Assembly: GCA_004020545.1 (NCBI GenBank) | Contig: SAQE01000016.1 | Span: forward strand, 33,825-97,824 | Direction of reading: 5' to 3' | DNA: 64,000 nt | Origin: Mesorhizobium sp. | GTDB lineage: Bacteria > Pseudomonadota > Alphaproteobacteria > Rhizobiales > Rhizobiaceae | Shown here: one piece after another, positions 38,736 through 64,000 of the stretch | Numbering within the stretch: position 1 is the stretch's first letter | Layout of the letters: the number at the start of each line of letters is the position of its first letter | Notes under the pieces: generated by a model | Database searches by the model: none | What the model saw: the letters and a program-made list of their open reading frames with translations, nothing else | What the model was told of the DNA's origin: nothing | Translations under genes and position numbers: made by a program

Positions 38736-38909
38736 AAACCAATGTATCCGTTCTCTGAATGATATTCTTGCCATGTCGATAGAGGTCTAGCCTCTCGTAC
38801 GGCTGGCGATGCGCAGCGCAAAAAATGCCACCTGCGGACTTCCCTGCCAAACGTGCAACTGCGACGTGGTCGCCACGTCGGGTGTCGATATTTGGCCTTA
38901 AGGTATGGA

Positions 38910-43766: not shown

Positions 43767-44000
43767 CGTCAGCGGCTAAGCACGTTTCGCTGGTTCCAGC
43801 ACCTTCGCGTCGCAGATCCGCGCCGGTCAAGTGCATCTCAACTACCCGGCGTGGGCAGGCGGCCTTTCTCGCCTTCCACCATCGTTCCCATTATCGGCTT
43901 CTCGCCAGATCCAATGAGTGCGCAGAATGCCTAGACTCTCCCTCCCAGGCTGGGAGGGGGAGCGGTTATGAACAAGCTTCTCGGTTGCCGCTAAAGATCC

Positions 44001-44774
44001 TCACGCAGGCCGTTCGGAAGCGCTCGGTCGCCACTTGATGAAGTGCTTCTCGGCGACGTCCAGGATGCTGTCGATAATCAGGACGAAGATCGCGAGGATA
44101 AGGATACCTGCGAAGACACCGACCGCATCGAAATTGCCTTCCGCCTGAGCGATCAGATAGCCAAGCCCGGCGGATGAGCCGAGATACTCGCCGATAATCG
44201 CCCCCACGACGGCAAAACCGACCGAAGTGCGCAACGAAGACAGAATCCAGCTTGCCGCTGCCGGGAAGTAGACGTGGCGAAGCAGGTCCGACCGCTTGGC
44301 TCCCAGGATGCGGGTGTTCGACAACACAACCGGGTTCACCTCACGGACGCCCTGCATGGCGTTGAAGAAAGTGACGAAGAACACCCGCGTGACGGCGAGC
44401 GCCACCTTGGACCAGAGACCGAGGCCGAGCCAGAGTACGAATATCGGCGCAAGCACGACGCGAGGTATCGCGTTCAAGCCTTTGATGAAAGGATCCAGAA
44501 TGCGCGCGGCCGAACGACTGAGGCCGAGCCAGACGCCTGCTGCCACGCCGAGTGCCGTCCCGACCAAATAGCCGAGCACGGTTTCCGTCAAGGTGATGGC
44601 CACATGGTTATAGAAGCTGGCGTCCACTACCCAGGACGCCACCTGCTTGAGGATGTCGACCGGAGCCGGGAAAAAGAAGACGTCGATGATGCCCGCCGCG
44701 ACACCGAGCTGCCAGCCGCCGACAATTGCCACCAGCAGTGAGACTTGGATGAGGCGTTCAGTCGTGGCGTTCAT
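44001..44774 (-). CDS. NitT/TauT-family ABC transporter permease (SsuC/TauC-like)
   Basis: 257 residues from ATG 44774, which overlaps the end of the ATPase gene by 17 bases. Six predicted helices; the EAA loop region is YFPAAASWILSSLRTSVGFAV, with LNAIPRVVLAPIFVLWLGLG before it. The family imports sulfonates, nitrate, hydroxymethylpyrimidines or aromatic acids. It is the last gene of the operon with the ATPase, binding protein and PrpF-like isomerase gene, and its ligand is probably the substrate or product of that isomerase. Inner membrane. Confidence 0.9.
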   Translation of the reverse strand: MNATTERLIQVSLLVAIVGGWQLGVAAGIIDVFFFPAPVDILKQVASWVVDASFYNHVAITLTETVLGYLVGTALGVAAGVWLGLSRSAARILDPFIKGLNAIPRVVLAPIFVLWLGLGLWSKVALAVTRVFFVTFFNAMQGVREVNPVVLSNTRILGAKRSDLLRHVYFPAAASWILSSLRTSVGFAVVGAIIGEYLGSSAGLGYLIAQAEGNFDAVGVFAGILILAIFVLIIDSILDVAEKHFIKWRPSASERPA

Positions 44775-45588
44775 AGCTTTTCTCCACTTCGCTGCGCAGC
44801 GATGACCAGATGTTGCGATAGAGATCCATGAAGCGTGGATCGAGCTTGATTTCAGCGACATCGCGGGGGCGTCGGAGATCGACGGGGAAGCTGTCGATCA
44901 CGTGCGAGCGCGGTCCGGCGGCAAGCACCACGACCCGATCCCCGAGAGCGATCGCCTCCTCAAGGTCGTGCGTGATCATCACCACGGCACGCCGTTCCTC
45001 CTGCCAAAGCCGCAACAGCTCATTCTGCATCAGGTGGCGGGTATGGATGTCGAGTGCCGAAAAAGGCTCGTCCATCAGGATGACCTTGGGGCCAGTAATC
45101 AGTGCCTGCGCCATCTGCACGCGCTTGCGCTGTCCGCCGGAAAGCTGATGCGGGTAGCGATGCTCGAAGCCCTTCAGGCCAACCTTCGCCAGCCACTTCA
45201 TCGACTGTTCGCGCCGTTCGGCAGCGCCTGTGCCCTTGAACATGGGGCCAAGTTCGACATTCTCGAGTGCAGTCTTCCAAGGAAGCAGTGCATCCTGCTG
45301 GAACAGATAGCCGATATCGTTTTGGATGCCGCGTACCGGCTGACCCTCAATCGCGACAGTACCGCTTGAGGGCTTCAGCAGCCCGGCAATCGCGTTAAGA
45401 ATCGTGCTCTTGCCGCAGCCGGTCGGCCCAACGATCGCGAGAAACTCGCCATCGGCGACAGCCAAGTTCACATTCTGCACGGCCACATAGGCGCCAAAGG
45501 ACATGGTGACCTTGTCGATGGAAACCATCGGCTTCGCATGATGCGGACTGTTCGTCGGGGATACGGTTTTCACTACGGCCAATGCCAT
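44758..45588 (-). CDS. NitT/TauT-family ABC transporter ATP-binding protein (SsuB/TauB-like)
   Basis: 276 residues with the ribosome binding site GGAGGAGG next to ATG 45588. Walker A GPTGCGKST at 54-62, Q-loop YLFQQDALLPW (the LLPW motif typical of SsuB/TauB ATPases), signature LSGGQRKR, Walker B VILMDEPFSALD and switch His in MITHDLEEA. It energises the permease encoded by the overlapping downstream gene. 12 bases separate it from the binding-protein gene. Cytoplasmic. Confidence 0.92.
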   Translation of the reverse strand: MALAVVKTVSPTNSPHHAKPMVSIDKVTMSFGAYVAVQNVNLAVADGEFLAIVGPTGCGKSTILNAIAGLLKPSSGTVAIEGQPVRGIQNDIGYLFQQDALLPWKTALENVELGPMFKGTGAAERREQSMKWLAKVGLKGFEHRYPHQLSGGQRKRVQMAQALITGPKVILMDEPFSALDIHTRHLMQNELLRLWQEERRAVVMITHDLEEAIALGDRVVVLAAGPRSHVIDSFPVDLRRPRDVAEIKLDPRFMDLYRNIWSSLRSEVEKSYERHD

Positions 45589-45600
45589 GACCTCCTCCTG

Positions 45601-46602
45601 TCAGTTGGCGGCGACGTTCGGGACTTTGTCGACGAATTCGTTCGTGTAGGTTTTCTTAAGGTCGATCTCAGCCGCTGCGACTTTTTCGTTGAAGCTCTTT
45701 AGGACCGCGAGCGGAGTCTTGATATCTTCCTCGTTGATACGGCCGTCCTTCGAGAAGATCGCCTTCGCGTTCTCTACCGCCTTGACATAGGTTTCACGAT
45801 CGCCGGAGATGAACTCCTTCGGCAACTTGTCGACGATCTCTTCCGCGGAGTGACTATTCATCCACTCCAGCGCCTTGACCGTCGCATTCGTGACCTTCTG
45901 GACTGTTTCCGGATTTTTCTCGATATAGCTCTGTGTGGCATAGAGGACGGAGGTTGGGTAAATCCCTCCATAGATCGCCTTGGCACCCTCGTCGCTGCGC
46001 CCATCTATCAGGATCTTGCCGACGCCCTTGGCGGCGATGAAGGTTGCCGCCGGGTCGTAGTTGACGAGGAGGTCGACCTTGCCCTGTTCGAGGGCCGCGA
46101 CGGCGGCAGACCCGGAGCCAACGCCGATCAGCGAGACGTCGTTCGCGGACAAGCCGTTGCGCTGCAGGTAATAGCGGACGAAGAAATCGGAAGACGAGCC
46201 TGGCGAGGTGATCCCGATTTTTGCGCCTTTGATCGTTTCCGGTTTTGCCGGGTCGAAAGTGCTGTTCTTGCCGCCAGCCAACACGAGCCCGGAATTGCGG
46301 GCGAGCTGCACGAACGCCACGACAGCCTTCTTTTGCGCCTGCATCTGGATCGTATGGTCGTAGAAGCCGACGGCGATATCCGTCGAGCCGGCGACAAGGG
46401 CCTGAAGCGTCTTCGACCCACCCGATGCGAAGTTCTCGACGGTCACCTCCAGGCCTTCCTTTTCATATAGGCCAAGCCCCTGGGCGACCGGAAAGGGAAG
46501 ATTGTTGAGATTGTACGAGCCGACGCTGATGCGGACCGGATCCGCGAACGCGGAACCGGCAAACACGACGGTTGCCGCGAGGGCGAGCATGAGCTTGCGC
46601 AT
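45601..46602 (-). CDS. NitT/TauT-family ABC transporter binding protein (NMT1/SsuA-like)
   Basis: 333 residues from ATG 46602 (AGGAGGAG upstream). The signal peptide is cut after SAFA near residue 20. Mature start VRISVGSYNLNNLPFPVAQGLGLYEKEGLEV, ASGGSKTLQALVAGSTDIAVG and a type II binding fold with VNYDPAATF at the hinge resemble SsuA, TauA and NMT1-like proteins. It is the second gene of the operon, 45 bases after the PrpF-like gene. Ligand unknown; an aromatic or unsaturated dicarboxylic acid fits the neighbour. Confidence 0.9.
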   Translation of the reverse strand: MRKLMLALAATVVFAGSAFADPVRISVGSYNLNNLPFPVAQGLGLYEKEGLEVTVENFASGGSKTLQALVAGSTDIAVGFYDHTIQMQAQKKAVVAFVQLARNSGLVLAGGKNSTFDPAKPETIKGAKIGITSPGSSSDFFVRYYLQRNGLSANDVSLIGVGSGSAAVAALEQGKVDLLVNYDPAATFIAAKGVGKILIDGRSDEGAKAIYGGIYPTSVLYATQSYIEKNPETVQKVTNATVKALEWMNSHSAEEIVDKLPKEFISGDRETYVKAVENAKAIFSKDGRINEEDIKTPLAVLKSFNEKVAAAEIDLKKTYTNEFVDKVPNVAAN

Positions 46603-46647
46603 GATATTCTCCTCCTATTGGTGGCGCCCTCCCGGCGGCCACGGTTA

Positions 46648-47745
46648 TTATGCCGCGCAACCCAATTGCGGGACAGGTTTTGCAAATACATGTCCTTCGA
46701 ACAGCCGGCGGGCGGTGCGAAGGATTCCGGCGACGACTTTGCCGTCCCTTTCATACAGCTTGACGTCCAGGTGGCCGCTTGGGTGCTCTATGGAAAGCAC
46801 GACTGGAGGGATCCGCCGGCCGATCAGAAGCGAAGCAACGGTATCCTGGCTGATACAGGCCGTGGCGATCCCCACGGCGCCCGTGGTTGCGAGCGACGGG
46901 TGACATTGATGCGGCATGAAATACCGCACGCTGATGTCGCCTCCCGACTTTGGCCGGGAAATCAGCACCGGCTTCGGCGTTACCTGATTGCATACATCCC
47001 CAAGGCCCATCCGTTCGCCGGCAGCGATGCGCAGCTTCTCCAGCCGTCCCAGCAACTCCTTATCAGCATTGAGTTCAGCCGCTGATTCGAAGCCCGTTGC
47101 GCCGACCGAGTCTGCCTCGATCAACATCATCGGCATTGCGCAGTCGATGCAGGTGACAACCACACCATCGATCATGTCTACTGGATTGCCAGTGGGAAAA
47201 AGCTGTCCGGTGCGGGCCCCCGCTGCGTCCATGAAGGTCAATGCGATCGGCGCTCCACGGCCGGGCACGCCGTCGATCGCAGCTTCACCGAGATAGGAGA
47301 CGCTGCCGTTTGGAGTGGGAACTTCGGCCTCGATCAGCTTGCTGGTGTTGACGTTATGGATCCGAACGAGCGTCGTGTCTCCACGAGCCGGGACAAGTCC
47401 AGCTTCAATGGCAAACGGGCCGACCGCGGCCAGCATGTTGCCGCAGTTCGGGGAGGTGTCGACAATCTGCTGGTCGACCCGCACCTGGGCAAACAGATAA
47501 TCCACGTCGGCGCCTGGAATGCTGGCAGGCCCGACGATGGCCACCTTGCTCGTAACCGGATTGCCGCCACCGATGCCGTCTATCTGCAACGGATGACCCG
47601 AGCCCATAACGGACAGTAGGATCTTGTCCCGCTCGATGGCGTCCGCAGGAAGATCGTTTGCCAGGAAGAACGGACCTTTTGAGGTGCCGCCTCTCATTAG
47701 AACGCAAGGGATAGCCAACAGGTCATTCATCGCTTGTGCTTGCAT
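46648..47745 (-). CDS. 4-oxalomesaconate tautomerase-like protein (PrpF/DUF453 family, GalD/LigU-like)
   Basis: 365 residues from ATG 47745, or 360 from ATG 47730; neither has a convincing ribosome binding site. IPCVLMRGGTSKGPFF, GSGHPLQIDGIGGGNPVTSK, VDTSPNCGNML (with Cys101) and MPHQCHPSLATTGAVG match GalD, which tautomerises 4-oxalomesaconate in gallate degradation, and LigU, the isomerase of lignin-derived aromatic catabolism. The diaminopimelate-epimerase-like fold moves a proton between carbon atoms. It leads an operon with a NitT/TauT-type importer and is divergent from a LysR gene. No gallate dioxygenase or hydratase gene is nearby, so the physiological substrate is inferred. Confidence 0.87.
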   Translation of the reverse strand: MQAQAMNDLLAIPCVLMRGGTSKGPFFLANDLPADAIERDKILLSVMGSGHPLQIDGIGGGNPVTSKVAIVGPASIPGADVDYLFAQVRVDQQIVDTSPNCGNMLAAVGPFAIEAGLVPARGDTTLVRIHNVNTSKLIEAEVPTPNGSVSYLGEAAIDGVPGRGAPIALTFMDAAGARTGQLFPTGNPVDMIDGVVVTCIDCAMPMMLIEADSVGATGFESAAELNADKELLGRLEKLRIAAGERMGLGDVCNQVTPKPVLISRPKSGGDISVRYFMPHQCHPSLATTGAVGIATACISQDTVASLLIGRRIPPVVLSIEHPSGHLDVKLYERDGKVVAGILRTARRLFEGHVFAKPVPQLGCAA

Positions 47746-47845
47746 CAGAATTATGTCATCGCCGTATTAATAGGCGCTCTTTGATCCAATTATCGGAAAA
47801 CACATTTATTTTGTGAAATGCTAAGAATCAGGGGATTGATGCAAA
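47746..47845. promoter_or_regulatory. Divergent promoter region with a LysR-type palindrome candidate
   Basis: 100 bases separate the PrpF-like operon from the divergent LysR gene. The region is AT-rich compared with its surroundings. It contains CACA at 47801-47804 and TGTG at 47812-47815, a short inverted repeat of the T-N11-A kind bound by LysR proteins. This is a visual candidate only; no footprint or conservation evidence is available. Confidence 0.35.
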
Positions 47846-48745
47846 ATGAGCATTAATTGCGAGATCCTTGACCTTCGAGCCTTCCTAAGCGTCGTAGAGT
47901 TGGAGAGCTTTCATCGCGCGGCCGAAGCTCTGCATCTGTCACAGCCCGCGTTGAGCCGCCGCATTCAAAAATTGGAGCAGGCTATCGGAGCGCCCATTTT
48001 GGAACGGACAACCCGGCACGTATCCGCGACGGCTCTCGGTACAGAACTCGTGCCGCTCGTGCGACGCATGCTGGAGGAGTTTGACGGCTCTCTGTTTGCT
48101 GTGCGTGACGTTGGAACCAACCGAGGTGGATTGGTGACGATCGCGTGCCTCCCCACCGCAGCATTCTACTTCCTGCCGACCGTCATCCGACAGTTCAATG
48201 AGGAGTACCCGAACATCCGTTTTCGCATCCTCGACTTGCCGGCGACCGACGGTCTTCAAGCCGTGGCGCGCGGGGAGGTGGAGTTCGGCATAAACATCAT
48301 GGGCACGTCGGATCCGGACCTGACCTTTGATCGGCTCGCGGAAGACCCATTTGTGCTTGCAGCGCGGAAGGATCACCCTCTGGCTGCCAAACCATCGGTC
48401 GGCTGGGCGGAACTAGAGCCCTATCATCTGATCACGGTTCATCGATCAAGCGGCAACAGAACGCTGCTCGACGCGGCACTGGCAAAATCGAACATCAAGC
48501 TTCGCTGGTTCTACGAGGTAACCCATCTGTCCACCTCCCTCGGGCTGGTGGAGGCAGGCCTCGGGATTTCCGTTCTGCCACGAATGGCAACCCCGGGAGA
48601 AGACCATCCGTTTCTGATCACCCGCCCCATCCGCAATCCCGAGATATCACGCACGATCGGCGTGGTTCGCCGTCGCGGCGGCACCTTGTCGCCGGCGGCA
48701 GAGCGATTCCTTAAGATGCTGATAGGTTTATGGGGCAGTGATTGA
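47846..48745 (+). CDS. LysR-family transcriptional regulator
   Basis: 299 residues from ATG 47846. The helix-turn-helix (FLSVVELESFHRAAEALHLS, QPALSRRIQKLEQAIGAPIL) is at about 10-65, and a periplasmic-binding-like effector domain follows. Divergent from the PrpF-like/NitT operon, which it most likely controls in response to an aromatic- or dicarboxylate-type inducer. The 361 bases after it (48746-49106) hold no recognised gene. Confidence 0.9.
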   Translation: MSINCEILDLRAFLSVVELESFHRAAEALHLSQPALSRRIQKLEQAIGAPILERTTRHVSATALGTELVPLVRRMLEEFDGSLFAVRDVGTNRGGLVTIACLPTAAFYFLPTVIRQFNEEYPNIRFRILDLPATDGLQAVARGEVEFGINIMGTSDPDLTFDRLAEDPFVLAARKDHPLAAKPSVGWAELEPYHLITVHRSSGNRTLLDAALAKSNIKLRWFYEVTHLSTSLGLVEAGLGISVLPRMATPGEDHPFLITRPIRNPEISRTIGVVRRRGGTLSPAAERFLKMLIGLWGSD

Positions 48746-49106
48746 GAGGCGCTAGGAAATCGCCAGCCGTAAAACCAGAAGCCTTATGCGGCCAGAAAGG
48801 AGTCGGTACCGCTTGCGGAAAAACTAGTTCTCTTCCTGGTCCTCAGGTTCGCCAGGCCATGCGAGAGAATACGAAGGAAATGGGTTGGCGAACCATCCGC
48901 TAACGAATTGATTTCCTGTAGAAAACATTGACCCTCAGCGACTAACAAAGTCGTTGTTCGCCAATGGGTTACGAAGCAGTTCGCCAAAGTTGATTCAAGA
49001 AGCTGATCCGGCCACTCGACGACCGCATTATTTTCTCCGAATGGCAGCTTTTAGGCTGCCAATAGCAGTTGATTGAAATCGAGCGATCCGGCCCGCACCT
49101 CCTCAA
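48746..49106. other. 361-base stretch with no recognised gene
   Basis: A 67-codon minus-strand frame at 48784-48987 has no recognised domain. The stretch is less GC-rich than the flanking genes. No clear terminator with a T-tract or known repeat was seen. Confidence 0.35.
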
Positions 49107-53562: not shown

Positions 53563-53934
53563 AGCCGTCTTGATCGGCTGGCATTAGCATGCCGTTCGGT
53601 CTCAGACCGAGGGCCGTCCCTTCCGGGTTCGTGAAGGGACCTCGCCAAAGAACTCTCGGTAGCGACCAGCAAAGCGGCCCCAATGGAAAAACCGTCGTGA
53701 AATTTCGCTTCGAAGTACATAGGTTGTTATGTCCTCCTACGCTTAGCAGAACCACCAGCCGAAGCGGAGGCTCCCGCCCGTCCATCCCGCCGGCGCCAAC
53801 CCACGGTCGGATTATGCGAGCATCCACGAGATCACCACGACCCTCGCAAGCATGCTTTGATTTCTTCCGGAAGGCTCCCCGCGAGTATCCTGATTGGGGA
53901 ACCGCTCTTGTCTTCCAGGCACCATAGGTAAACG

Positions 53935-55623
53935 CTACTGGAGATTATATGTTGCCAAAATCTCAGCTCCCGATAGTGCAGATTTTGCTGCAGCCATCGC
54001 GGTCGGCAATTCAACAGTGATGAAATAGCGCGCCTCAATTTCGGTGGCGCCGCCTTGTACGAGAGCCGCGCTTTCCGCCAGATATCCCCCGGCAATGACA
54101 GCGGCCAAGGCGCGGAGGAGCGGCATTGCTACCGCGAGCGACTGCACGCTATCGGGCGCGTCGGATAGCGTCTTCGCCAGTTCCGATATTTCAGACACAA
54201 TACGGCTTGCGAGCGGTTCGCCGGCAACGATCGTCAGTCCCTGCTGACTGGATTTCAAGGCATCAAACAGCGTTTCGCCGTCTTCGAGACGTAGCTTTCG
54301 CGAGACAAGATCAATGGCCTGTATGCCATTGGTGCCCTCGTAGATCGGCAAAATACGAGCGTCGCGATAAAGCTGCGCAACGCCCGTCTCCTCAATGTAT
54401 CCCATTCCGCCGTGGATCTGAATTGCACTTGAGGTTACTTCGACCGCTATCTCCGTCGAGTAGGCTTTGGCCAACGGCGTCAATAGTGAGGCCCTTGCAT
54501 GCGCGAGCCGTCTGTCATCGGCTGATTTTGCTCTCAGGCTCCCGTCGATCCAACAGGCGGTTGCCATGCAGAGCAGACGTGCAGCAGCAGTCTTGGCCCG
54601 CATTTCAAGGAGCATTCGTCTGACGTCAGGATGACGAATTATTGCGCTTGCGCCTGGTCCCTGATCCGGAACGCTTCCCTGGCGCCTTTCCTTTGCATAG
54701 GCGACTGACATCTGCGTGGCCCGCTCTGCAAGCGCAACTCCCTGGACGCCCACTAGAAGCCTGGCGTTGTTCATCATCGTGAACATACAATTGAGGCCGC
54801 GGTTCTCTTGTCCGATCAACCATCCTTTCGCGCCGCCGTTATCACCATAGGTCATGGCGCAGGTCGGTGAACCGTGTATGCCGAGCTTGTGCTCGAGCGA
54901 ATGGCAGCGCAGGTCGTTGCGTGTTCCGTCAGGCAGAAATTTGGGGACGAGAAACAGGGAGATTCCCCGCGTACCCGCAGGCGCATCGGCAAGTCGCGCC
55001 AAGACCAGATGCACGATGTTCGACGCGCAATCGTGCTCGCCATAAGTTATGAAAATCTTGCTGCCGGTGATGGAGTAAGTGCCGTCGCCCAAGCGTTCCG
55101 CCCGGCAGCGTAGATCCGAAAGATCGGAGCCAGCCTGCGGTTCCGTGAGGTTCATGGTACCGGTCCATTCCCCGGACACGAGCTTGGGCAGGTAAAAATC
55201 TTTGAGGTCCTGGCAGGCATGCGCCGCAATCGCTTCGATGGCACCTGCCGTCAGAAGCGGGCAGAGAGCAAAGGCCATGGAAGCCGAGTTCCACAGTTCG
55301 GTACATCCCACGGCCATCAACATGGGAAGTCCTTGCCCGCCATGGTTGGCGGGCCCCGCTAAACCGTTCCAACCAGCTACGCACCAGTCCCGGTAGGTTG
55401 CACGCCAGCCCGGAGGCGTGGTGACCTTCCCGTCGTTGATGGACGCAGGAAGCCGGTCGCCGACCTGGTTCAAGGGGGCGATACGTTCGGCGGCAAAACG
55501 CCCGGCCTCGGAAATGATGGCTTGCGCATCGTCGAGAGAGAGGTCGGCATAATGAGGAGCGCCGAACTTCCCGGCGCTCTGCATCGCCAAGAGAATCTGG
55601 GACACAGGTGGTTGATAGGTCAT
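53935..55623 (-). CDS. dmdC: Acyl-CoA dehydrogenase, DmdC-like (3-methylmercaptopropionyl-CoA dehydrogenase candidate)
   Basis: 562 residues, longer than classical acyl-CoA dehydrogenases because of the N-terminal extension (YQPPVSQILLAMQSAGKF) and the C-terminal domain typical of the DmdC/AcdN-type group. NLTEPQAGSDLSDLRCRAE and FITYGEHDCASNIVHLVLA form the FAD site; the catalytic Glu lies in PIYEGTNGIQA, and IQIHGGMGYIEE is conserved. In the DMSP demethylation pathway DmdC oxidises 3-methylmercaptopropionyl-CoA to methylthioacryloyl-CoA. It is the last gene of the operon, 3 bases after the crotonase gene. Family very likely; the sulfur-compound substrate is inferred from the operon. Confidence 0.85.
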   Translation of the reverse strand: MTYQPPVSQILLAMQSAGKFGAPHYADLSLDDAQAIISEAGRFAAERIAPLNQVGDRLPASINDGKVTTPPGWRATYRDWCVAGWNGLAGPANHGGQGLPMLMAVGCTELWNSASMAFALCPLLTAGAIEAIAAHACQDLKDFYLPKLVSGEWTGTMNLTEPQAGSDLSDLRCRAERLGDGTYSITGSKIFITYGEHDCASNIVHLVLARLADAPAGTRGISLFLVPKFLPDGTRNDLRCHSLEHKLGIHGSPTCAMTYGDNGGAKGWLIGQENRGLNCMFTMMNNARLLVGVQGVALAERATQMSVAYAKERRQGSVPDQGPGASAIIRHPDVRRMLLEMRAKTAAARLLCMATACWIDGSLRAKSADDRRLAHARASLLTPLAKAYSTEIAVEVTSSAIQIHGGMGYIEETGVAQLYRDARILPIYEGTNGIQAIDLVSRKLRLEDGETLFDALKSSQQGLTIVAGEPLASRIVSEISELAKTLSDAPDSVQSLAVAMPLLRALAAVIAGGYLAESAALVQGGATEIEARYFITVELPTAMAAAKSALSGAEILATYNLQ

Positions 55624-55626
55624 CTG

Positions 55627-56415
55627 TCACCTGGTCCCTGGTTCGAGACGTTCGGTCTTCTTGGAAAAGAAGGCCTCGAGCCGCTCCCTGATATCCGGGT
55701 TGGTTTGCACGGCTGCGGCAAGCAGGCCTTCTGCAAACAGGCCGTCCGTGGTGGACATGTCATTGATGCGGGATATGCCGGTCACGATGGCAAAATTGGT
55801 GGTTGGGGGATTAGAGGCAATCTGCGCAGCCAGCTTCTTGGCACGGGCGAGCGCCTGACCGTCGCCCACCACTTCATGGCATAGGCCAAGATCTAGCCCG
55901 CGTCGGGCGTCGTAGGTCCTTGCCGACAGCATCATGTCGATCATGCGCGCCGGCGTGATGATGCGGGCCACGCGTACCGTGGCGCCACCTCCCGTGAAGA
56001 TGCCGCGCTGGCCTTCCGGAAGAGCAAAGAAGGTATTCTCCTCTGCCACGCGGACATGCGCCGCCGCCGCCAGTTCGAGGCCGCCGCCCACGACTGCCCC
56101 CTTGAGTGCGGCGACCACGGGGATGCCGGTGAATTGAATGAGGTCGAAGGTTCGGTGCCAGCCTTGGCACATCGTCATGAATTCGACTGGGGAGCGGTCC
56201 TTCTCATAGTGCTCCCGCAGATCTAATCCGGCGCAGAAGTGGGCGCCCTTGGCCGAAAGCACGAAACACCGCGTACCCCGGGGTGGCGCCCGAAACACGT
56301 TTTCGATCTCCATCAGCATGTCTTCGCTAATGGCATTGCGCCGATCCTCGCGTGCCAGCGTTACGATTGTTACGGCGCCTTCCGTCTCGATCGTGATGTA
56401 CTGTTGTTTCATCAT
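55627..56415 (-). CDS. dmdD: Crotonase-family enoyl-CoA hydratase, DmdD-like candidate
   Basis: 262 residues from ATG 56415. The oxyanion-hole segment AKGAHFCAGLDLREHYEK and the catalytic pair are recognisable: one Glu in VVGGGLELAAAA and the other in FALPEGQRGIFTGGG. DmdD hydrates methylthioacryloyl-CoA and releases methanethiol and acetaldehyde; the FALPEGQRGIF segment is the kind seen in that group. Its stop and the dmdC start are 3 bases apart, and its start overlaps the dmdB-like stop by 4 bases (ATGA). Could instead be a hydratase for another enoyl-CoA. Confidence 0.8.
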   Translation of the reverse strand: MMKQQYITIETEGAVTIVTLAREDRRNAISEDMLMEIENVFRAPPRGTRCFVLSAKGAHFCAGLDLREHYEKDRSPVEFMTMCQGWHRTFDLIQFTGIPVVAALKGAVVGGGLELAAAAHVRVAEENTFFALPEGQRGIFTGGGATVRVARIITPARMIDMMLSARTYDARRGLDLGLCHEVVGDGQALARAKKLAAQIASNPPTTNFAIVTGISRINDMSTTDGLFAEGLLAAAVQTNPDIRERLEAFFSKKTERLEPGTR

Positions 56416-58028
56416 GGAAAAGCCTTGGCCCGTTCACGTAACTTGTACTTTTCGATCTTTCCCGTCGAAGTCTTGGGCAAAGTCTCAAAGATATAATGCT
56501 TTGGGACCTTGAAGCCGGGGAGACGTTGCCGGCAGAACTGGTTCAGTTCATCTGCGGTGGCATTTGCACCAGGCTTGAGTTCCACGAAGGCGCAAGGTGT
56601 TTCGCCCCATTTGACGTCGTGCTTGGCCACGACAGCGGCGGCGCTGACGGCCGGATGCCGAAATAGAACAGATTCTACCTCGATCGAGGAAATGTTCTCC
56701 CCGCCAGAGATGATGATGTCCTTGATTCGGTCTTTGATTTCGAGAAAACCGTCCGGATGCTGCACGGCGACGTCGCCAGTGTGGAACACCCCGCCTGCAA
56801 AGGCAGCTTCCGTGGCCGCTTCATCCTTGTGATAGCCTTTCATGATCGTGTTGCCGCGCAGCACGATCTCACCCATCGCCGTGGCGTCCTGAGGCAGGCG
56901 CGCTCCGGACTGAGCGTCCCAAATCTCAGCCGATTCCGTTGTTGGAAAGCGCACTCCCTGACGCGCTTTGATCATCGCGCGTCTCGTGAAATCCAAGCCG
57001 TCCCATGCCTGGTCCCAAATGGATTGGACGACATGGCCGTAGGTTTCCGTGAGGCCGTATACTTGCATCACATCGAAGCCCAGTGCTTCGACTTTCTCAA
57101 GAATGGCCGCAGGCGGCGGCGCTCCCGCCGTCATGACGCGAACGGTATGCGGCAGTGTACAAGGTTCTGCTTCGGCAGCCTCTACCAGCATGCCGAGCAT
57201 GACAGGCGCCCCGCCAAAATGGGTGACACCGAAAGTCTCGATGGCCCCGAAGATCGCCTTGGCCGAGATCTGCCTGCAACAGACGATCGTCGCGGCAAGC
57301 GCGGTCATGGTCCACGCATGCCCCCAGCCGTTACAGTGAAACATGGGCACCGTGTAAAGATAGATCGGATGGCCCGACAGTCCCCAGCCCGCGATGGTGC
57401 CCAATGTCATAAGATAGGCGCCGCGATGATGGTAGAGCACGCCTTTAGGCCGCCCGCTGGTGCCGGATGTATAGTTCAGGCACAGGGTCTGCCATTCGTC
57501 AGCCGGGAGCAGCGGCGAGAAGCCGGCGGCCTCGGACCGAACCAAATCCGCGTGGCGGACGCATCCGGCCGGACCATCCCCAGCCCCGCCCAGATCGATG
57601 AAGGTGGGAATGGCGCCCGTGACGCGTTCAAGCGCGGCCTCAGCCAATGGCCGGCATTGCCTGTCGACCATCAATACGCGCGTTTCCGCGTGGTCGAGAA
57701 TATAGGCTACGGTTTCGGCATCGAGCCGGATATTGATGGTGTTGAGGACCGCGCCGGTCATCGCGACGGCGAAGTGTGCCTCGACCATCTCAGCCGTGTT
57801 GGGAGCAAGCACCGAAACGACGTCTCCTGGCTTAACACCCAAGCGGATCAAGCCCGCCGCCAGAGCCTCGCAGCGGCGGCGCACTTCCAGCCAGGTGAAG
57901 CGACGTTCCTCATCGATGATTGCCACGCGATCAGGGTAAAGATCAGCCGTGCGGTAGAGGAATGAGATCGGGGTCAAAGGCACGTGATTGGCGGCCCGAG
58001 GTCGGAGATAAGGCGCCTCGTCAATCAT
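56412..58028 (-). CDS. dmdB: Acyl-CoA synthetase, DmdB-like (3-methylmercaptopropionate-CoA ligase candidate)
   Basis: 538 residues from ATG 58028, which overlaps the dmdA-like stop by 4 bases (ATGA); the frame extends upstream into that gene. Adenylation motifs: YTSGTSGRPKG (ATP loop), PMFHCNGWGHAW, QVYGLTETYGHV, GVFHTGDVAV, IKDRIKDIIISGGENISS and the C-terminal catalytic Lys in KTSTGKIEKYKLR. The length and HCNGWG motif match medium-chain fatty-acid/MMPA ligases such as DmdB. It activates a short acid with ATP and CoA for the dehydrogenase and hydratase that follow. Normal length. Confidence 0.85.
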   Translation of the reverse strand: MIDEAPYLRPRAANHVPLTPISFLYRTADLYPDRVAIIDEERRFTWLEVRRRCEALAAGLIRLGVKPGDVVSVLAPNTAEMVEAHFAVAMTGAVLNTINIRLDAETVAYILDHAETRVLMVDRQCRPLAEAALERVTGAIPTFIDLGGAGDGPAGCVRHADLVRSEAAGFSPLLPADEWQTLCLNYTSGTSGRPKGVLYHHRGAYLMTLGTIAGWGLSGHPIYLYTVPMFHCNGWGHAWTMTALAATIVCCRQISAKAIFGAIETFGVTHFGGAPVMLGMLVEAAEAEPCTLPHTVRVMTAGAPPPAAILEKVEALGFDVMQVYGLTETYGHVVQSIWDQAWDGLDFTRRAMIKARQGVRFPTTESAEIWDAQSGARLPQDATAMGEIVLRGNTIMKGYHKDEAATEAAFAGGVFHTGDVAVQHPDGFLEIKDRIKDIIISGGENISSIEVESVLFRHPAVSAAAVVAKHDVKWGETPCAFVELKPGANATADELNQFCRQRLPGFKVPKHYIFETLPKTSTGKIEKYKLRERAKAFP

Positions 58029-59128
58029 AGGAAAGGAAGCTCCACTAGCTGCGCGGCCATCGAACCGTTCTCGCGATTGACGGTGACTGTCGTTCCGGCC
58101 TTCACGGCGGTGGATATCAAGGCATATCCGATGTTGGCCTTCATTCGGGGCGACCATGTGCAATGCGTCATCACGCCAACCTTGGTGCCGTCGAAGGTGA
58201 TGTCCTCACGTTTGGCGCCAAACGGCACAGGCATCGAGGCATCGAGAATTAGGCCCAGTTGGTGCCGCTTCGGCCCCTCGGCTTCAATCTTTCGGAGCGC
58301 TCCGATCCCGACAACATCGTCCGGAACGCCGAGATCGACATACTTGCCGAGCCGAACTTCGAAGGGATTGGTTTCGTCGTCGGTGTCGCCTCCCACCGAC
58401 AGAAGCCCGCTCTCCGTGCGTTCCGCAGTTGCCGGGGCGCCAGGGCCGATACCCCAAGGCTTGCCTGCTTCCTTGAAGATGTTCCAGAGCTTCGTGCCCT
58501 TGGTCCCATCCCTCAGATAGATCTCAAATCCGCCTTGTTTGGACCATCCCGATCGCTGCACCGCTATCGGAATGCCTTCGATCTCGGTTTCCTTGAACCA
58601 GAAGTACTTTAGCGCGCGCACCCAATCGCCCAGAACATGGGCTACAACATCCTCGGCCTTGGGTCCTTGCAGAGCCATGGGCGAGACGTCGGGTTCGGTA
58701 ATTTCGACATTCAGCCCTCGTTCCGCCGCAATGGCACTGGCCCAAAGCCAGATGTCGCTGTCTGCAATCGAAAGCCAATAGAGGTCGTTGGAGAGCTTCA
58801 ACAAGATCGGGTCATTGATGACCGTGCCGCGATGGTTGCAAAGCGGGACATATTTTCCTTGGCCAATTTTACAGGCTGAGAGATCTCGCGGCGACAGGAT
58901 TTGTGCCAGCCGTCCAGCGTCCGGTCCCTTGAGCTGCACCTGGCGTTCTACACCGACATCCCATTGCGAGACGCCGTTGATCAGCCGCCAGTATTCTCCC
59001 TCCGGGTCGCCGAACGACGTCGGCATGATCATGCGGTTGTAGACATTTGCAGCCACCATGCCTTCCGCCACCACGGCTTCAAAGAAGGGCGACGGACGGA
59101 TGCGGGCTGTTGGGAAGAAGGAGAACAT
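58025..59128 (-). CDS. dmdA: DmdA-like tetrahydrofolate-dependent demethylase (GcvT family; DMSP demethylase candidate)
   Basis: 367 residues from ATG 59128 (GAGGGATTCA upstream), the length of characterised DmdA; the frame is open earlier. The GcvT fold shows YNRMIMPTSFGDPEGEYWRL at 30-49, SQWDVGVERQVQL, SPRDLSACKIGQG, ADSDIWLWASA, ALQGPKAEDV and RSGWSKQGGFEIYL at 192-205 (Glu202, Tyr204). The run PTSFGDP, IADSD and RSGWSKQGG-E-Y is that of marine DmdA proteins, in which the family's catalytic Asp is absent. DmdA moves a methyl group from DMSP to tetrahydrofolate, giving methylmercaptopropionate. It leads the operon with ligase, crotonase and dehydrogenase. Activity untested; GcvT relatives with other methylated substrates are possible. 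Confidence 0.75.
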   Translation of the reverse strand: MFSFFPTARIRPSPFFEAVVAEGMVAANVYNRMIMPTSFGDPEGEYWRLINGVSQWDVGVERQVQLKGPDAGRLAQILSPRDLSACKIGQGKYVPLCNHRGTVINDPILLKLSNDLYWLSIADSDIWLWASAIAAERGLNVEITEPDVSPMALQGPKAEDVVAHVLGDWVRALKYFWFKETEIEGIPIAVQRSGWSKQGGFEIYLRDGTKGTKLWNIFKEAGKPWGIGPGAPATAERTESGLLSVGGDTDDETNPFEVRLGKYVDLGVPDDVVGIGALRKIEAEGPKRHQLGLILDASMPVPFGAKREDITFDGTKVGVMTHCTWSPRMKANIGYALISTAVKAGTTVTVNRENGSMAAQLVELPFL

Positions 59129-59325
59129 TGAATCCCTCGGACTGCAATATCGGCGGTAACTGCCGCCTTCCTCATCGGGGACGGCTCTGATCTTCGGAAG
59201 TGGGGGCTCACTTCGTCCCGCATGGGGCAGGTGAGCCTTGAATGTCTCGGCAACGCGTGTTGCGTCAAACAACCGTTTCGCAGACAATGACCATGTTTTT
59301 GTTATACATAAGTTGGATGTGGCCC
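59129..59325. promoter_or_regulatory. Divergent promoter region of the DmdA-like operon and LysR gene
   Basis: 197 bases between the divergent starts. Near 59290-59312 lies an AT-rich TGTTTTTGTTATACATAAG stretch that includes a TATACA element resembling a -10 hexamer for the plus-strand gene. LysR operators are expected here, but I do not single out one with confidence. Confidence 0.35.
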
Positions 59326-60225
59326 ATGCAGCTCGATCTGCCACCTCTCATTTGGCTGCGCGCCTTCGAAGCCGCAGCGCGCCATCTCAGCTTCACCGAT
59401 GCTGCCATGGAGCTCAATCTGACCCAGGCCGCAATTTCCAAGCACGTCAAATCGCTCGAGCTCAGCCTGCGGCATCAGCTGTTCATCCGCCGCCCTCGCA
59501 GCCTGCAATTGACAAAGACCGGGGAGGCCTATCTACCGAAGGTGCGCGACGCATTCGAACGTCTGGCTATCGGTACCCGAGAGGTGTTCGGTGGGCGCCG
59601 AGCGAAGGAGCTGACCGTGCGATGCTCAGTGTCCTTTGCGGTCAATTGGCTGGCACCCCGCCTCCCGGAGTTTCTGGACTGTAATCCTGACAAGAATATC
59701 AGGATAATCTCAAGCGTCTGGAACGATGCCTTCGACACGGACGTCTTCGATCTCGATATCCAGTACGGCACCGGCGGCTGGAGCAACGTCCGGAGCCATC
59801 GTTTGACATGGGAGACCATCACGCCCCTTTGCGCCCCTGGCCTCGTCGATAAACGACCACTGAAGCGGCCCGACGATCTGCGGGAACACCGGTTACTGCA
59901 TGTGCTCGGATACCAGGAAGGTTGGGGGATCTGGCTGAATGCCGCTGAGGCAAAGACGGTCGACCCCGGGCAGGGCTTGCAACTCGACACCTCTTTAACG
60001 GCCTTCGAGATCGCGGCAGAAGGTGGCGGCGTGGCACTCGGGCGGTTGTCGCTTGCCAACCGAGAACGGAGATCTGGCAGACTGTTCGCGCCATTTGATC
60101 TCGAAGTTCCGATTGATGAGGCCTTTCACCTGTTGGAGTCCCTCGGAAGGGACCTGCATCCTGACGCCGCGCTTTTCGTCGACTGGCTGCTCGACGCCGC
60201 GGCTCGCGATCGCGTGAATTTATGA
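59326..60225 (+). CDS. LysR-family regulator, GcvA type
   Basis: 299 residues from ATG 59326; the start is chosen because MQLDLPPLIWLRAFEAAARH is the conserved GcvA-type opening, though the frame begins earlier. The helix-turn-helix (LSFTDAAMELNLTQAAISKHVKSLE) and the effector domain (VSFAVNWLAPRLPEFLD) are typical. GcvA-type regulators respond to glycine or methylated amines. Divergent from the DmdA-like operon and its probable regulator. Intact. Confidence 0.88.
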   Translation: MQLDLPPLIWLRAFEAAARHLSFTDAAMELNLTQAAISKHVKSLELSLRHQLFIRRPRSLQLTKTGEAYLPKVRDAFERLAIGTREVFGGRRAKELTVRCSVSFAVNWLAPRLPEFLDCNPDKNIRIISSVWNDAFDTDVFDLDIQYGTGGWSNVRSHRLTWETITPLCAPGLVDKRPLKRPDDLREHRLLHVLGYQEGWGIWLNAAEAKTVDPGQGLQLDTSLTAFEIAAEGGGVALGRLSLANRERRSGRLFAPFDLEVPIDEAFHLLESLGRDLHPDAALFVDWLLDAAARDRVNL

Positions 60226-60818: not shown

Positions 60819-61297
60819 TCATGGAGCGGTCTCCCGGTTCGTCGCGGTTGCGCCCGGTGGTCCGCGCGGCTGCCTCCATCGTTCGAAGGTCTCGATGATG
60901 ATCATGCGGCCGCCACAGCAGGGGCACGGCGGGCGGAAGTTGTCCGGTTCGTCCGTGGTGTCGTCATCGGACGGTACGGCGACATTCAGGAGTTCACGCG
61001 CAAGCGCGAGGCTGGCCTTGCGAGCCGAGCCGGCAAGCAGGCCGCAATGCCGGATGCGGTGGAATCCCTTTGGCAACACGTGGAGCAGGAAGCGGCGGAT
61101 GAACTCGTCGGTGGCGAGCGTCATGAGCTGCTGCCGGTCGGCGCCTTCGTGACGATAGTCCTTGTAGCGGAAGGTGACGCCGCTCTCGTCGAAACGGATG
61201 AGGCGGCTGTTCGAGATCGCGACCCGGTGCGTGTAGCGCGACAGATAGGCGAGCACCGCCTCCGGGCCGGCGAAGGGCGCCTTGGCGTAGATCACCC
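60819..61297 (-). pseudogene. IS91-family transposase, C-terminal part (interrupted)
   Basis: Residues such as VIYAKAPFAGPEAVLAYLSR, YTHRVAISNSRLIRFDES, RYKDYRHEG and GFHRIRHCGLLAG are the conserved second half of IS91/IS801-type transposases (HUH/rolling-circle type), ending in a cysteine-rich tail (FRPPCPCCGGRM). The first half lies at 63319-64000 on the same strand. Between them sits a group II intron in the opposite orientation, so the transposase is inactive in this copy. Confidence 0.85.
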
Positions 61298-63318
61298 TTG
61301 CGACAGGACAAGTCCTGGAAAGGAGAATGGAATGTAGATCCTGAAACCTTTCGAAGCGATCCAGAGGGTTCGACCCCCTCCCGGCAAAGGCGCAGCCCGC
61401 CAGCCGGAAGCGAGTCTTGCATGGGCGACGGCAACGTCGCTCGTGAAGCGTAGACAGCGGATGCTGAAGCCATGTGTCAGCCTCGAGATTATGTGCATGC
61501 GGAGGCCTTCGGCGTGGGTGGCCCGGGGGCAGCATCGTCGGAACCGCCAAGGGCGAGGTTCTGGCGGCTCGGCCGGGGTCTTGGAGCAGGGCAAAGGCAT
61601 GGGATGGATCGCCAGGGAACCTGTGAGATCCCGCTCGCGTCCACGGACGCAGTGTGCCGGATAAAGGGACGCCGACTGACCAATGGTCCCAGGCCCGACG
61701 GGCGTCCTCCACGCTGTCGGGAGCGCTTCGGCGAACACGAAGGACGGAGGAGCGCGTGGAGCCTGCAACCGAAACCATAAGGGAGCAGAAATGCGGGGGC
61801 GGGAAGTCGTAGCGCCTTCATAGTAGCGGTGAAAACGGGGAACTGGGCTCACCGGGACCCGACGGAGCGAAGGGAGGCGTCATGTGTAGAGAACCGTTGA
61901 CCTGAAACATGGGAGGGGGCTCTGAACCCCACAAACCTGTCTACGAACCGACAACGGATAGCCGAACTGGCGAGGACGAAACGGGGTGTGGCGCTGTACT
62001 CGCTCCACCATGTCATCGATCTGGACTGGATGAAGGAGGCCTACCGGCTGACCCGCAAGGATGGTGCCCCTGGCATCGACGGCGTCACGGCGGCGGACTA
62101 TGAGGTGAACCTGGAGACCAGACTTCTGGACCTCCTGGAGCGCATCAGGTCCGGCCGATATCGTGCGCCGCCGGTCCGGCGGGCCTATATACCCAAGGCG
62201 GATGGCTCGCAAAGGATGCTCGGCATTCCGACCTTCGAGGACAAGGTGGCGCAACGCGCCATTACGATGGTGCTGGAGACCGTCTATGAGGAGGATTTCT
62301 ACCCCTGCTCATATGGATTCCGACCGGGCCGCTCGGCCCATCAGGCGCTCCGCAATATGCAGAACGTGCTGTGGGCAAAGCGGCTCTATTGGGTGATCGA
62401 TCTCGACATACAGAAGTACTTCGACTCGATTCCGCACTCTCACCTCCGTGCGTTCCTCGACCAGCGAGTCACGGACGGCGTCATCCGACGGATGATCGAT
62501 AAATGGCTGAACGCAGGAGCCGTCGAAGACGGTCTTCTGCGCCGAACGGCCGAAGGATCCCCGCAAGGAGGCGTGGTCTCGCCCTGCCTCTCGAACATCT
62601 TCCTGCACCACGTGCTGGACGAATGGTTCGAGACCGAGGTGCGGCCGCGGCTCCGTGGGGGCTGTACCATTGCCCGCTACGCTGACGATGCGATCATGGC
62701 GTTCGACAACATCGTCGACGCCCAGCGTGTCCTGGCAGTGCTGGACAAACGTCTTGGACGGTTCGGGCTTACGCTCCACCCCGACAAGACGCGTCTCGTC
62801 GACTTCCGCCCGCGAAGGACGGAGAGCACACGGCATCCGGAGACGGACGGCACCAAGTTCGACTTCCTCGGCCTGACCCACGTGTGGGGACGGTCGCGCA
62901 GAGGCAAGGACATGGTGATGCAAGTCACGGCCAAGGGCCGTTTTGCTCGTGCGTTGGCTGCGGTAAGTGACTGGTGCCGGAAACACCGGAACTGGTCGAT
63001 CCGCGATCAGCATCGCCATCTCTCGTCCATGATGCGGGGCCACTTCGCCTATTATGGCGTCGGGGGAAATGCTCGGCGATTGCGATGGTTCGCCCACCAG
63101 GTCGTGAGGATATGGCGGAAATGGCTATCTCGGCGAGATCGTCAAAGCGTGTTCCGATGGACCCGCCTTAACGAAATCCTGAAACGCCATCCGCTGCCGC
63201 CAGCCAGGATTCTTCATTCGTTTGCCACCGTGAGCGAAACTCTACCATGAGGAACCGGATGCGGGAAAACTGCACGTCCGGGTCTGCGAGGGGTGGGGGC
63301 AGTAACGCCCCCACCTAC
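61298..63318 (+). mobile_element. Group II intron inserted antisense in the IS91-family transposase
   Basis: The junction sides are defined by the split transposase reading frame: near 61296-61298 on the left and 63318-63323 on the right. The left start reads TTGCG where the consensus is GTGYG. On the right, a domain V-like hairpin (stem 63255-63264 with 63270-63281, loop GAAAA, CG bulge at 63275-63276) and a domain VI-like hairpin (63293-63300 with 63307-63314) end at CTAC, giving the usual AY terminus. The intron-encoded protein lies on the plus strand within domain IV. Because the host gene runs on the minus strand, splicing cannot repair it. Exact ends need alignment. Confidence 0.75.
61988..63250 (+). 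CDS. ltrA: Group II intron reverse transcriptase/maturase
   Basis: At least 420 residues from the GTG at 61988. The reverse transcriptase motifs are DGAPGIDGVT, APPVRRAYIPKADGS, YGFRPGRSAHQAL, VIDLDIQKYFDSI, AEGSPQGGVVSPCLSNIFL and the catalytic IARYADDA, followed by a thumb/maturase X region and a short basic tail (RRLRWFAHQVVRIWRKWL). Conserved-looking residues (LSTNRQRIAELARTKRG) continue upstream of 61988 to about 61922, but no ATG, GTG or TTG occurs in frame before the stop at 61898. The true N terminus may therefore start at a CTG, or the gene may have lost its start. No HNH endonuclease domain is seen at the C terminus. Confidence 0.88.
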   Translation: MALYSLHHVIDLDWMKEAYRLTRKDGAPGIDGVTAADYEVNLETRLLDLLERIRSGRYRAPPVRRAYIPKADGSQRMLGIPTFEDKVAQRAITMVLETVYEEDFYPCSYGFRPGRSAHQALRNMQNVLWAKRLYWVIDLDIQKYFDSIPHSHLRAFLDQRVTDGVIRRMIDKWLNAGAVEDGLLRRTAEGSPQGGVVSPCLSNIFLHHVLDEWFETEVRPRLRGGCTIARYADDAIMAFDNIVDAQRVLAVLDKRLGRFGLTLHPDKTRLVDFRPRRTESTRHPETDGTKFDFLGLTHVWGRSRRGKDMVMQVTAKGRFARALAAVSDWCRKHRNWSIRDQHRHLSSMMRGHFAYYGVGGNARRLRWFAHQVVRIWRKWLSRRDRQSVFRWTRLNEILKRHPLPPARILHSFATVSETLP

Positions 63319-64000
63319 TCGGCAGCGCTTCTTTCGAACGGGAGCGAGGTGGCGCAGGAAGGCCCGCCGGTCGGTGAGGTGCGCCATCGATCCGAAGAAG
63401 CTGAGCCGGCCAGCGTCGTGCAGCGCGACCAGACGGGTGAGGAAGAGGCGGCGGAACAGCTTGCCGAGTACGCGCACCGGCAGCAGGAAGGCCGGACGCG
63501 ACGATATCCAGCGGCTTCCGTCCGGCGAGATGCCGCCGCCCGGCACGATCATGTGCACGTGCGGATGGTGCGTCATCGCCGAGCCCCAGGTGTGAAGCAC
63601 GGCGGTGATGCCGATGCGCGCGCCGAGATGCTTCGGATCCGCCGCGATGGTCAGCATTGTCTCCGATGCCGCCTTGAACAGCAGGTCGTAGACCGCCGCC
63701 TTGTTCTGGAAGGCGATGACGGCGACCTCGGCCGGCAGCGTGAACACGACGTGGAAGTAGCCGACCGGCAGCAGATCGGCCTGGCGCTCGGCCAACCATG
63801 TCCGCGCGGCCGCGCCCTGGCACTTCGGGCAGTGCCGGTTGCGGCAGGAATTGTAGGCGATGCGCCACTGGCCGCAGGCCTCGCAGGCCTCGACGTGACC
63901 GCCAAGGGCCGCGGTGCGGCAGTGCTCGATCGCCGACATGAGCTTGAGCTCGGCGAGGCTCAGATGTCCGGCATGGGCGGCCCGGTAGGCGGGCCCGGCA
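63319..64000 (-). pseudogene. IS91-family transposase, N-terminal part (interrupted; runs off right edge)
   Basis: On the minus strand the frame enters from the right edge with AAHAGHLSLAELKLMSAIEH and proceeds through the zinc-finger region CEACGQWRIAYNSCRNRHCP, KCQGAAARTWLAERQ, the HUH motif THHPHVHMIVPGG and the segment MAHLTDRRAFLRHLAPVRKK. It then stops matching at about 63323, where the group II intron begins. Since the frame is open to the end of the window, the start codon lies beyond 64000. Together with 60819-61297 this is one transposase gene. Confidence 0.85.

Follow-up and report, generated by a model that had tools for sequence, protein, structure and literature searches.

A 64,000-nucleotide stretch of the 7.0-Mb, 188-contig genome of a Mesorhizobium sp. 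(contig C77, GenBank SAQE01000016.1; hereafter, the window) contains a compact four-gene operon that, with a probability that we place at roughly 70%, encodes a divergent dimethylsulfoniopropionate (DMSP) demethylase together with the pathway from methylmercaptopropionate (MMPA) to methanethiol as a self-contained cassette. We base this reading on the genes present, the predicted fold, the phylogeny, the recurrence of the linkage and the replacement in the DmdA slot, and from these we infer the reactions, the substrate and the regulation. In the proposed pathway, the first enzyme would demethylate DMSP with tetrahydrofolate (THF) as the methyl acceptor, yielding 5-methyl-THF and MMPA; the ligase would convert MMPA to MMPA-CoA, which a DmdC-type dehydrogenase would convert to methylthioacryloyl-CoA; and a DmdD-type hydratase would release methanethiol, CO2, CoA and acetaldehyde from the latter. 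The divergently encoded LysR protein probably switches the operon on.

The four open reading frames (ORFs; 59128-53935, minus strand) are intact, each with an ATG start and one stop, and follow one another with overlaps of 4 bases at 58025-58028 and again at 56412-56415 and a 3-base gap at 55624-55626 (Table 1), which bears out an earlier sequence-based prediction (hereafter, the original prediction) of a compact minus-strand four-gene run beside a divergent LysR gene. The G+C content of the operon unit is 59.4%, compared with 60.3% in the remaining window. Five further genomes of the genus (G004, G084, G132, G103 and G105) have these four genes in conserved order, a recurrence that points to more than chance; chance ORFs are ruled out by this conservation.

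Table 1. Positions of the operon, its divergent regulator and the surrounding cassette in the window.
Feature	Position	Strand	Predicted role or remark
DmdA-sister-clade demethylase, GCV_T fold, 367 aa	58025..59128	-	predicted DMSP to MMPA + 5-methyl-THF
AMP-forming acyl-CoA ligase, PRK08162 subfamily, 538 aa	56412..58028	-	predicted DmdB role
DmdD-type crotonase, PRK08150 subfamily, 262 aa	55627..56415	-	predicted methylthioacryloyl-CoA hydratase role
Long acyl-CoA dehydrogenase, 562 aa	53935..55623	-	predicted DmdC role
Divergent LysR regulator nearest GcvA model, 299 aa	59326..60225	+	ORF opens at 59242
Divergent intergenic region	59129..59325	.	expected promoter/operator
Cassette extent	53912..60215	.	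92-93% nucleotide identity with G004 and G084; flanks there unrelated

A sister clade of canonical DmdA

The product of the first gene (P0001) has a GcvT-like fold, and its best solved match is Pelagibacter ubique DmdA (3tfh). The expected motifs PTSFGDP, IADSD and RSGWSKQGGFEIY are all found in its translation, but would not by themselves suffice to make it a DmdA, because the wider sister clade has the same motifs. Against two GcvT models, P0001 scores 150 bits (cut-off 300) and 114 bits (cut-off 236); given these sub-cut-off scores and DmdA as the best solved relative, a GcvT, dimethylglycine or sarcosine enzyme is rejected, and the grouping with GcvT or dimethylglycine dehydrogenase that the original prediction had named as contrary to it did not occur by hidden Markov model and structure scores. 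The 11 further matches to P0001 in its own genome are distant (22-31% identical).

The P0001 clade is sister to canonical DmdA, with which it shares 36-40% identity. In a 74-row tree, 11 rows of canonical DmdA form one clade (support 100/100), P0001 falls inside a 46-row clade (95/89), and the two unite at 100/99 with the inclusion of locus L228, which adjoins the canonical rows. This tree was rooted by choice on four unannotated paralogues from the same genome, verified GcvT being absent, after nine long-branched or divergent rows had been removed and the remainder thinned from 155. P0001 lies outside the canonical DmdA clade in all three trees that we built, each without the DmdA of Ruegeria pomeroyi and SAR92. 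Three positions (P. ubique numbering) set both clades apart from the outer rows: K199 is found in 11/11 canonical, 15/15 close and 27/31 other sister rows, and in 0/8 outer rows; position 200 is Q in 57/57 canonical and sister rows and E in 8/8 outer rows; and E238 is found in 56 of the 57 canonical and sister rows and in none of the eight outer rows. A tryptophan linked to DMSP (W171 in the alignment given in PMC7487153, which we take to be P. ubique W197 by a numbering correspondence of our own) is present in P0001 as W195. As this position is Tyr in 5/11 canonical rows, its conservation is a weak test that decides nothing; Trp occurs in 7/8 outer rows.

Two operon types and the exchange of the first gene

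The ligase carries the HCNGWG motif named in the original prediction and passes the PRK08162 model (746 bits against a cut-off of 677). The crotonase passes PRK08150 (341 bits, cut-off 232), a subfamily wider than DmdD, and its glutamates in GGGLE and ALPE, both of which had been predicted as catalytic, align with the two glutamates of 4izb, which we take to be R. pomeroyi DmdD; the first is alanine in the variant chain 4izc. The dehydrogenase matches 6ijc (E 1.9e-118; listed as an acyl-CoA dehydrogenase family protein and presumably DmdC), with 8png and 8r1e scoring slightly higher.

Operons that begin with a close relative of P0001 (A) are of two types. Type 1, with the ligase (B), hydratase (D) and dehydrogenase (C) in the order A-B-D-C, comprises the window and the five genomes named above, and locus L143 reads A-B-D up to the end of its contig. 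Type 2, with the order A-B-C-D, is found in G025, G048, G019, a Marivivens plasmid and the Beijerinckiaceae locus L144. Between the window and type 2 (Marivivens, G025 and L144), the DmdA proteins are 82% identical, whereas the ligase, hydratase and dehydrogenase are only 47-54% identical (the L144 hydratase alignments cover 201-219 residues only). The type-2 downstream proteins rather resemble the neighbours of dmdA in Phaeobacter inhibens (ligase 62-64%, hydratase 75-79% and dehydrogenase 57-60% identity), and type-2 hydratases reach 78-82% identity with 4izb (88% for the annotated P. inhibens DmdD), whereas the type-2 DmdA proteins share 38-40% identity with that of P. inhibens. The setting of this exchange is the Marivivens plasmid, three Mesorhizobium genomes and one Beijerinckiaceae metagenome-assembled genome (MAG). 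The P. inhibens gene in question (PGA1_RS19020) is the one deleted in a study that reports loss of DMSP-dependent lag shortening in the dmdA deletion strain (PMC11306105), and both dmdA quantitative PCR primers given in PMC12366255 match it exactly. Two DmdA clades ahead of orthologous MMPA genes point to the same reaction, and we consider this swap before P. inhibens-type genes to be the strongest functional argument for the predicted activity.

The exchange also bears on the possibility that the substrate is an analogue of DMSP with the same C3-acid skeleton (for example, another sulfonium acid or beta-alanine betaine), which would be demethylated, ligated to CoA, desaturated and hydrated before a different leaving group is expelled. 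At ten positions (including H50R, C93G, G134A, G138E, C260V and G261R in P. ubique numbers), canonical DmdA and the close clade each keep a different conserved residue, the type-1 ligase, hydratase and dehydrogenase form a lineage apart from the P. inhibens locus (45-53% identity), and one host is a forest MAG (L141), forest being no obvious habitat for DMSP. We nevertheless think this alternative unlikely, given that in type-2 operons this DmdA (82% identity) is accompanied by a hydratase that is 78-82% identical to 4izb and 75-79% identical to annotated P. inhibens DmdD; DmdD is described as the methylthioacryloyl-CoA hydratase (PMC5395565).

Linkage was counted as the presence of dmdB-, dmdC- or dmdD-type genes within 5 kb, with loci binned by identity to P0001; neither the window nor the G019 copy with its frameshift was counted. 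Such a neighbour was found in 13/15 rows at >=78% identity and 11/25 at 70-78%, then in 3/30 (64-70%), 1/28 (58-64%), 1/23 (52-58%), 2/14 (45-52%), 4/11 (38-45%) and 1/13 (below 38%), and in 5/23 canonical DmdA rows. After removal of a duplicate (L141 = L028), 12 of the 14 close loci compared with 5 of the 23 canonical loci have a neighbour (p=2e-4), and at least two such genes are present in 11/14 compared with 2/23 (p=3e-5); these p-values do not come from clean trials, because the loci share ancestry, several lie on short contigs and the sets derive from different searches. A DmdD-type crotonase (E <= 1e-55) occurs in 9/146 genomes of the genus, all within the 10 that have a close DmdA, and these nine co-occurrences are one physical linkage inherited together rather than nine events.

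Several results weigh against the assignment to DMSP. Support for the sister clade is uneven, at 95/89 in the 74-row tree but 78 in a 155-row quick tree (corresponding clade of 101 rows) and 58 in an 82-row tree (eight rows added; 47 rows), and we regard monophyly of the large P0001 clade as only moderately supported. P0001 reaches 363.4 bits against the NCBIfam DmdA model NF009133, short of its cut-off of 410, compared with 634.6 for P. ubique DmdA and 600.3 for P. inhibens DmdA, and the ligase scores 296.8 bits against the DmdB equivalog NF005426, far under the cut-off of 822. The window hydratase shares only 50% identity with 4izb and appears to stand on a separate 4-row branch (support 99; 20-row quick tree with a midpoint root and one very long row), and across the class the distribution of its family, NF006013, does not follow that of DmdA (6/23 genomes with the family, p=0.12; sample of 385 genomes, 56 with a DmdA-family match). 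Among relatives at 45-70% identity, only 7/95 have a dmdB-, dmdC- or dmdD-type neighbour. The SBP56 methanethiol oxidase is not enriched (2/10 genomes with a close DmdA compared with 33/136 others; 35/146 in total), no BCCT transporter was found in the window's genome, and a choline dehydrogenase cluster gene (the cluster representative passes its cut-off) lies within 5 kb in 7/120 loci. Six OpuAC-type matches lie elsewhere in the window's genome, unlinked to the operon. We do not count the failure of the ligase against the DmdB model as a strong objection, as the ligases adjoining canonical DmdA in L010 and L047 likewise fail the DmdB model and pass PRK08162.

Two further explanations touch on these results. 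The choline dehydrogenase genes suggest that some members of the wider clade may take their methyl groups from other donors, and the first enzyme could conceivably supply one-carbon units from such a donor (for example, glycine betaine), the other three genes being a co-transcribed MMPA or short-chain acyl-CoA module; DmdB and DmdC reportedly take ordinary short-chain acids (PMC5395565). We judge this improbable for the operon itself, as the close clade retains its linkage to dmdB-, dmdC- and dmdD-type genes despite two different downstream gene sets, and L144 carries a BetA-cluster gene together with the full operon. Highly improbable, in turn, is an ordinary canonical DmdA orthologue as in marine roseobacters: DmdA is the closest solved fold and the gene order equals that reported for Roseovarius mucosus (PMC4511512), but three trees place P0001 beyond the canonical clade and, unlike P. 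ubique and P. inhibens DmdA, it scores under the equivalog cut-off. Of the complete DMSP pathway claimed in the original prediction, what stands is a DmdA-type enzyme, a ligase, a DmdD-type hydratase and a DmdC-type dehydrogenase in one apparent transcription unit, with DMSP very probably the substrate; what does not is orthology of P0001 to verified DmdA (cut-off and tree) and equivalence of the ligase to DmdB.

Distribution, mobility and regulation

Close relatives of P0001 (81-100% identity) occur in 10/146 genomes of the genus, one of which has a second copy at 49%, and distant relatives (33-37%) occur in three more. In the family, 42/394 genomes have a match at E <= 1e-80, with identities down to 39%. 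In a scan of named genomes, the best 80 loci are 52-88% identical and belong to Mesorhizobium, Beijerinckiaceae, roseobacters, SAR116 and MAGs with lake-suggesting names; the 88% match is in NZ_JANINM010000301.1 (Mesorhizobium sp., MAG Bin.005_Forest). The chances seem to us evenly divided that the sister clade holds a second, unannotated family of DMSP demethylases (a DmdA isozyme) moving in compact cassettes among Mesorhizobium, Beijerinckiaceae, marine and (by record names) freshwater bacteria, and that soil and freshwater bacteria, too, demethylate DMSP in a way missed by annotation. Because the NCBI DmdA model misses the P0001 clade, DMSP demethylation may be under-counted in surveys that apply similar cut-offs.

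Other genes recur around the wider set of loci. DUF1326/DUF2182 genes, which carry a DMSP-breakdown label in a Marinovum record, are present at canonical loci (L047, L048, L241-L243 and L246), at sister-clade loci (L148, L172 and L287) and at L277, outside both. Choline dehydrogenase-cluster genes (L162 being the representative tested) stand near sister-clade DmdA-like genes in L157, L161, L162, L170 and L201, from Planktomarina and other MAGs. On the conjugative plasmid pP30_b of P. inhibens P30 (L044, 938-8131), genes for SBP56, a CoA-binding protein, a rhodanese and a metallo-hydrolase stand in a row that continues with an enoyl-CoA hydratase, a PRK08162 ligase and an outer-clade DmdA-like gene; this row is a candidate unit for the oxidation of methanethiol.

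The unit behaves as a cassette of about 6.3 kb with unrelated flanks. The nucleotide identity to G004 and G084 breaks at 53912-53920 and 60206-60215 (53920-60215 for G004 and 53912-60206 for G084), and the flanks compared (about 5 kb or more per side) are unrelated, barring a single stretch of 74 bases that matches a remote part of the window. One relative sits on a marine plasmid. Loss of the unit also occurs in places, given that G091 keeps the LysR and demethylase genes with the ligase reduced to its first 108 codons and that the G019 demethylase gene is split across two frames. Elsewhere in the window, an IS91-family transposase gene (60819-63939; zinc-binding and Y2_Tnp parts, minus strand) is interrupted by a plus-strand group II intron with a reverse transcriptase (Rfam RF02005 and RF00029), and an 810-aa ORF (38853-41285) encodes an APH-type kinase domain and a class-III aminotransferase as one fused protein. 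A cluster of PrpF, NMT1-type ABC transporter and LysR genes (43855-48793) lies about 5 kb from the operon and, rearranged and at 91% nucleotide identity, directly adjoins the G019 type-2 operon (L033, 13854-18779), which may reflect either a shared hot spot or a transport link.

The divergent LysR gene is real, but the GcvA type assigned to it in the original prediction falls just short, at 271 bits against a cut-off of 288. Its likelier start is 59326, because several homologues align only from about the 29th codon. In G103 and G105, the related LysR gene does not adjoin the four-gene operon. A comparison of the intergenic regions of nine loci (mean identity 54%) gave no convincing shared operator.

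Comparison with known systems

The operon had been predicted to be unusual in its completeness, yet precedents exist. The pathways of P. inhibens DSM 17395 (pPGA1_262) and R. pomeroyi have four enzyme types in common with the window, and in P. inhibens, in which dmdA has been genetically tested (PMC11306105), all four genes are adjacent. Identities between the window and P. inhibens are 40% for DmdA, 53% for the ligase, 51% for the hydratase and 45% for the dehydrogenase, and the neighbouring regulator gene is of the AraC type there and of the LysR type here. In R. mucosus, a marine roseobacter that we liken to the window by gene order, dmdA, dmdB, dmdD and dmdC are listed on consecutive locus numbers (PMC4511512), in the order found in the window.

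Divergent DmdA proteins also have precedents. A DmdA-related aminomethyltransferase paralogue of P. ubique (SAR11_1265), noted in 2011 as of unknown substrate, is, like P0001, close to yet distinct from DmdA, and adjoins metF (PMC3160333). A 2020 survey considered DmdA isozymes possible and reported no evidence for them (PMC7039863); work on SAR92 has since shown one divergent DmdA. The SAR92 proteins (HTCC2207, H921 and H231) are described as 35-40% identical to verified DmdA, peripheral to clades A-E, and able to bring methanethiol back to 34-54% of the wild-type level in a dmdA mutant of R. pomeroyi (PMC10746254). As described there, they are, like the window protein, divergent and clustered with dmdB and dmdC, but are gammaproteobacterial and have acuH in place of dmdD; the published SAR92 gene order was found at none of the loci inspected in the wider genome sets.

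The matches listed from open-licence literature included no dmdA operon of Mesorhizobium or other rhizobia, and among them we found no mention of a P0001-clade cassette in Mesorhizobium and its relatives or of DmdA replacement before the same pathway. The cassette is a candidate that bears on the isozyme question raised in the 2020 survey and, if the assignment is correct, would add rhizobia, the forest MAG included, to the bacteria that use DMSP and release methanethiol. The Marivivens sp. LCG002 plasmid (NZ_CP127166.1, L009) shares with the window a DmdA at 82% identity and a divergent LysR protein at 63-66%, and differs from it in the order A-B-C-D and in downstream genes of the P. inhibens type.

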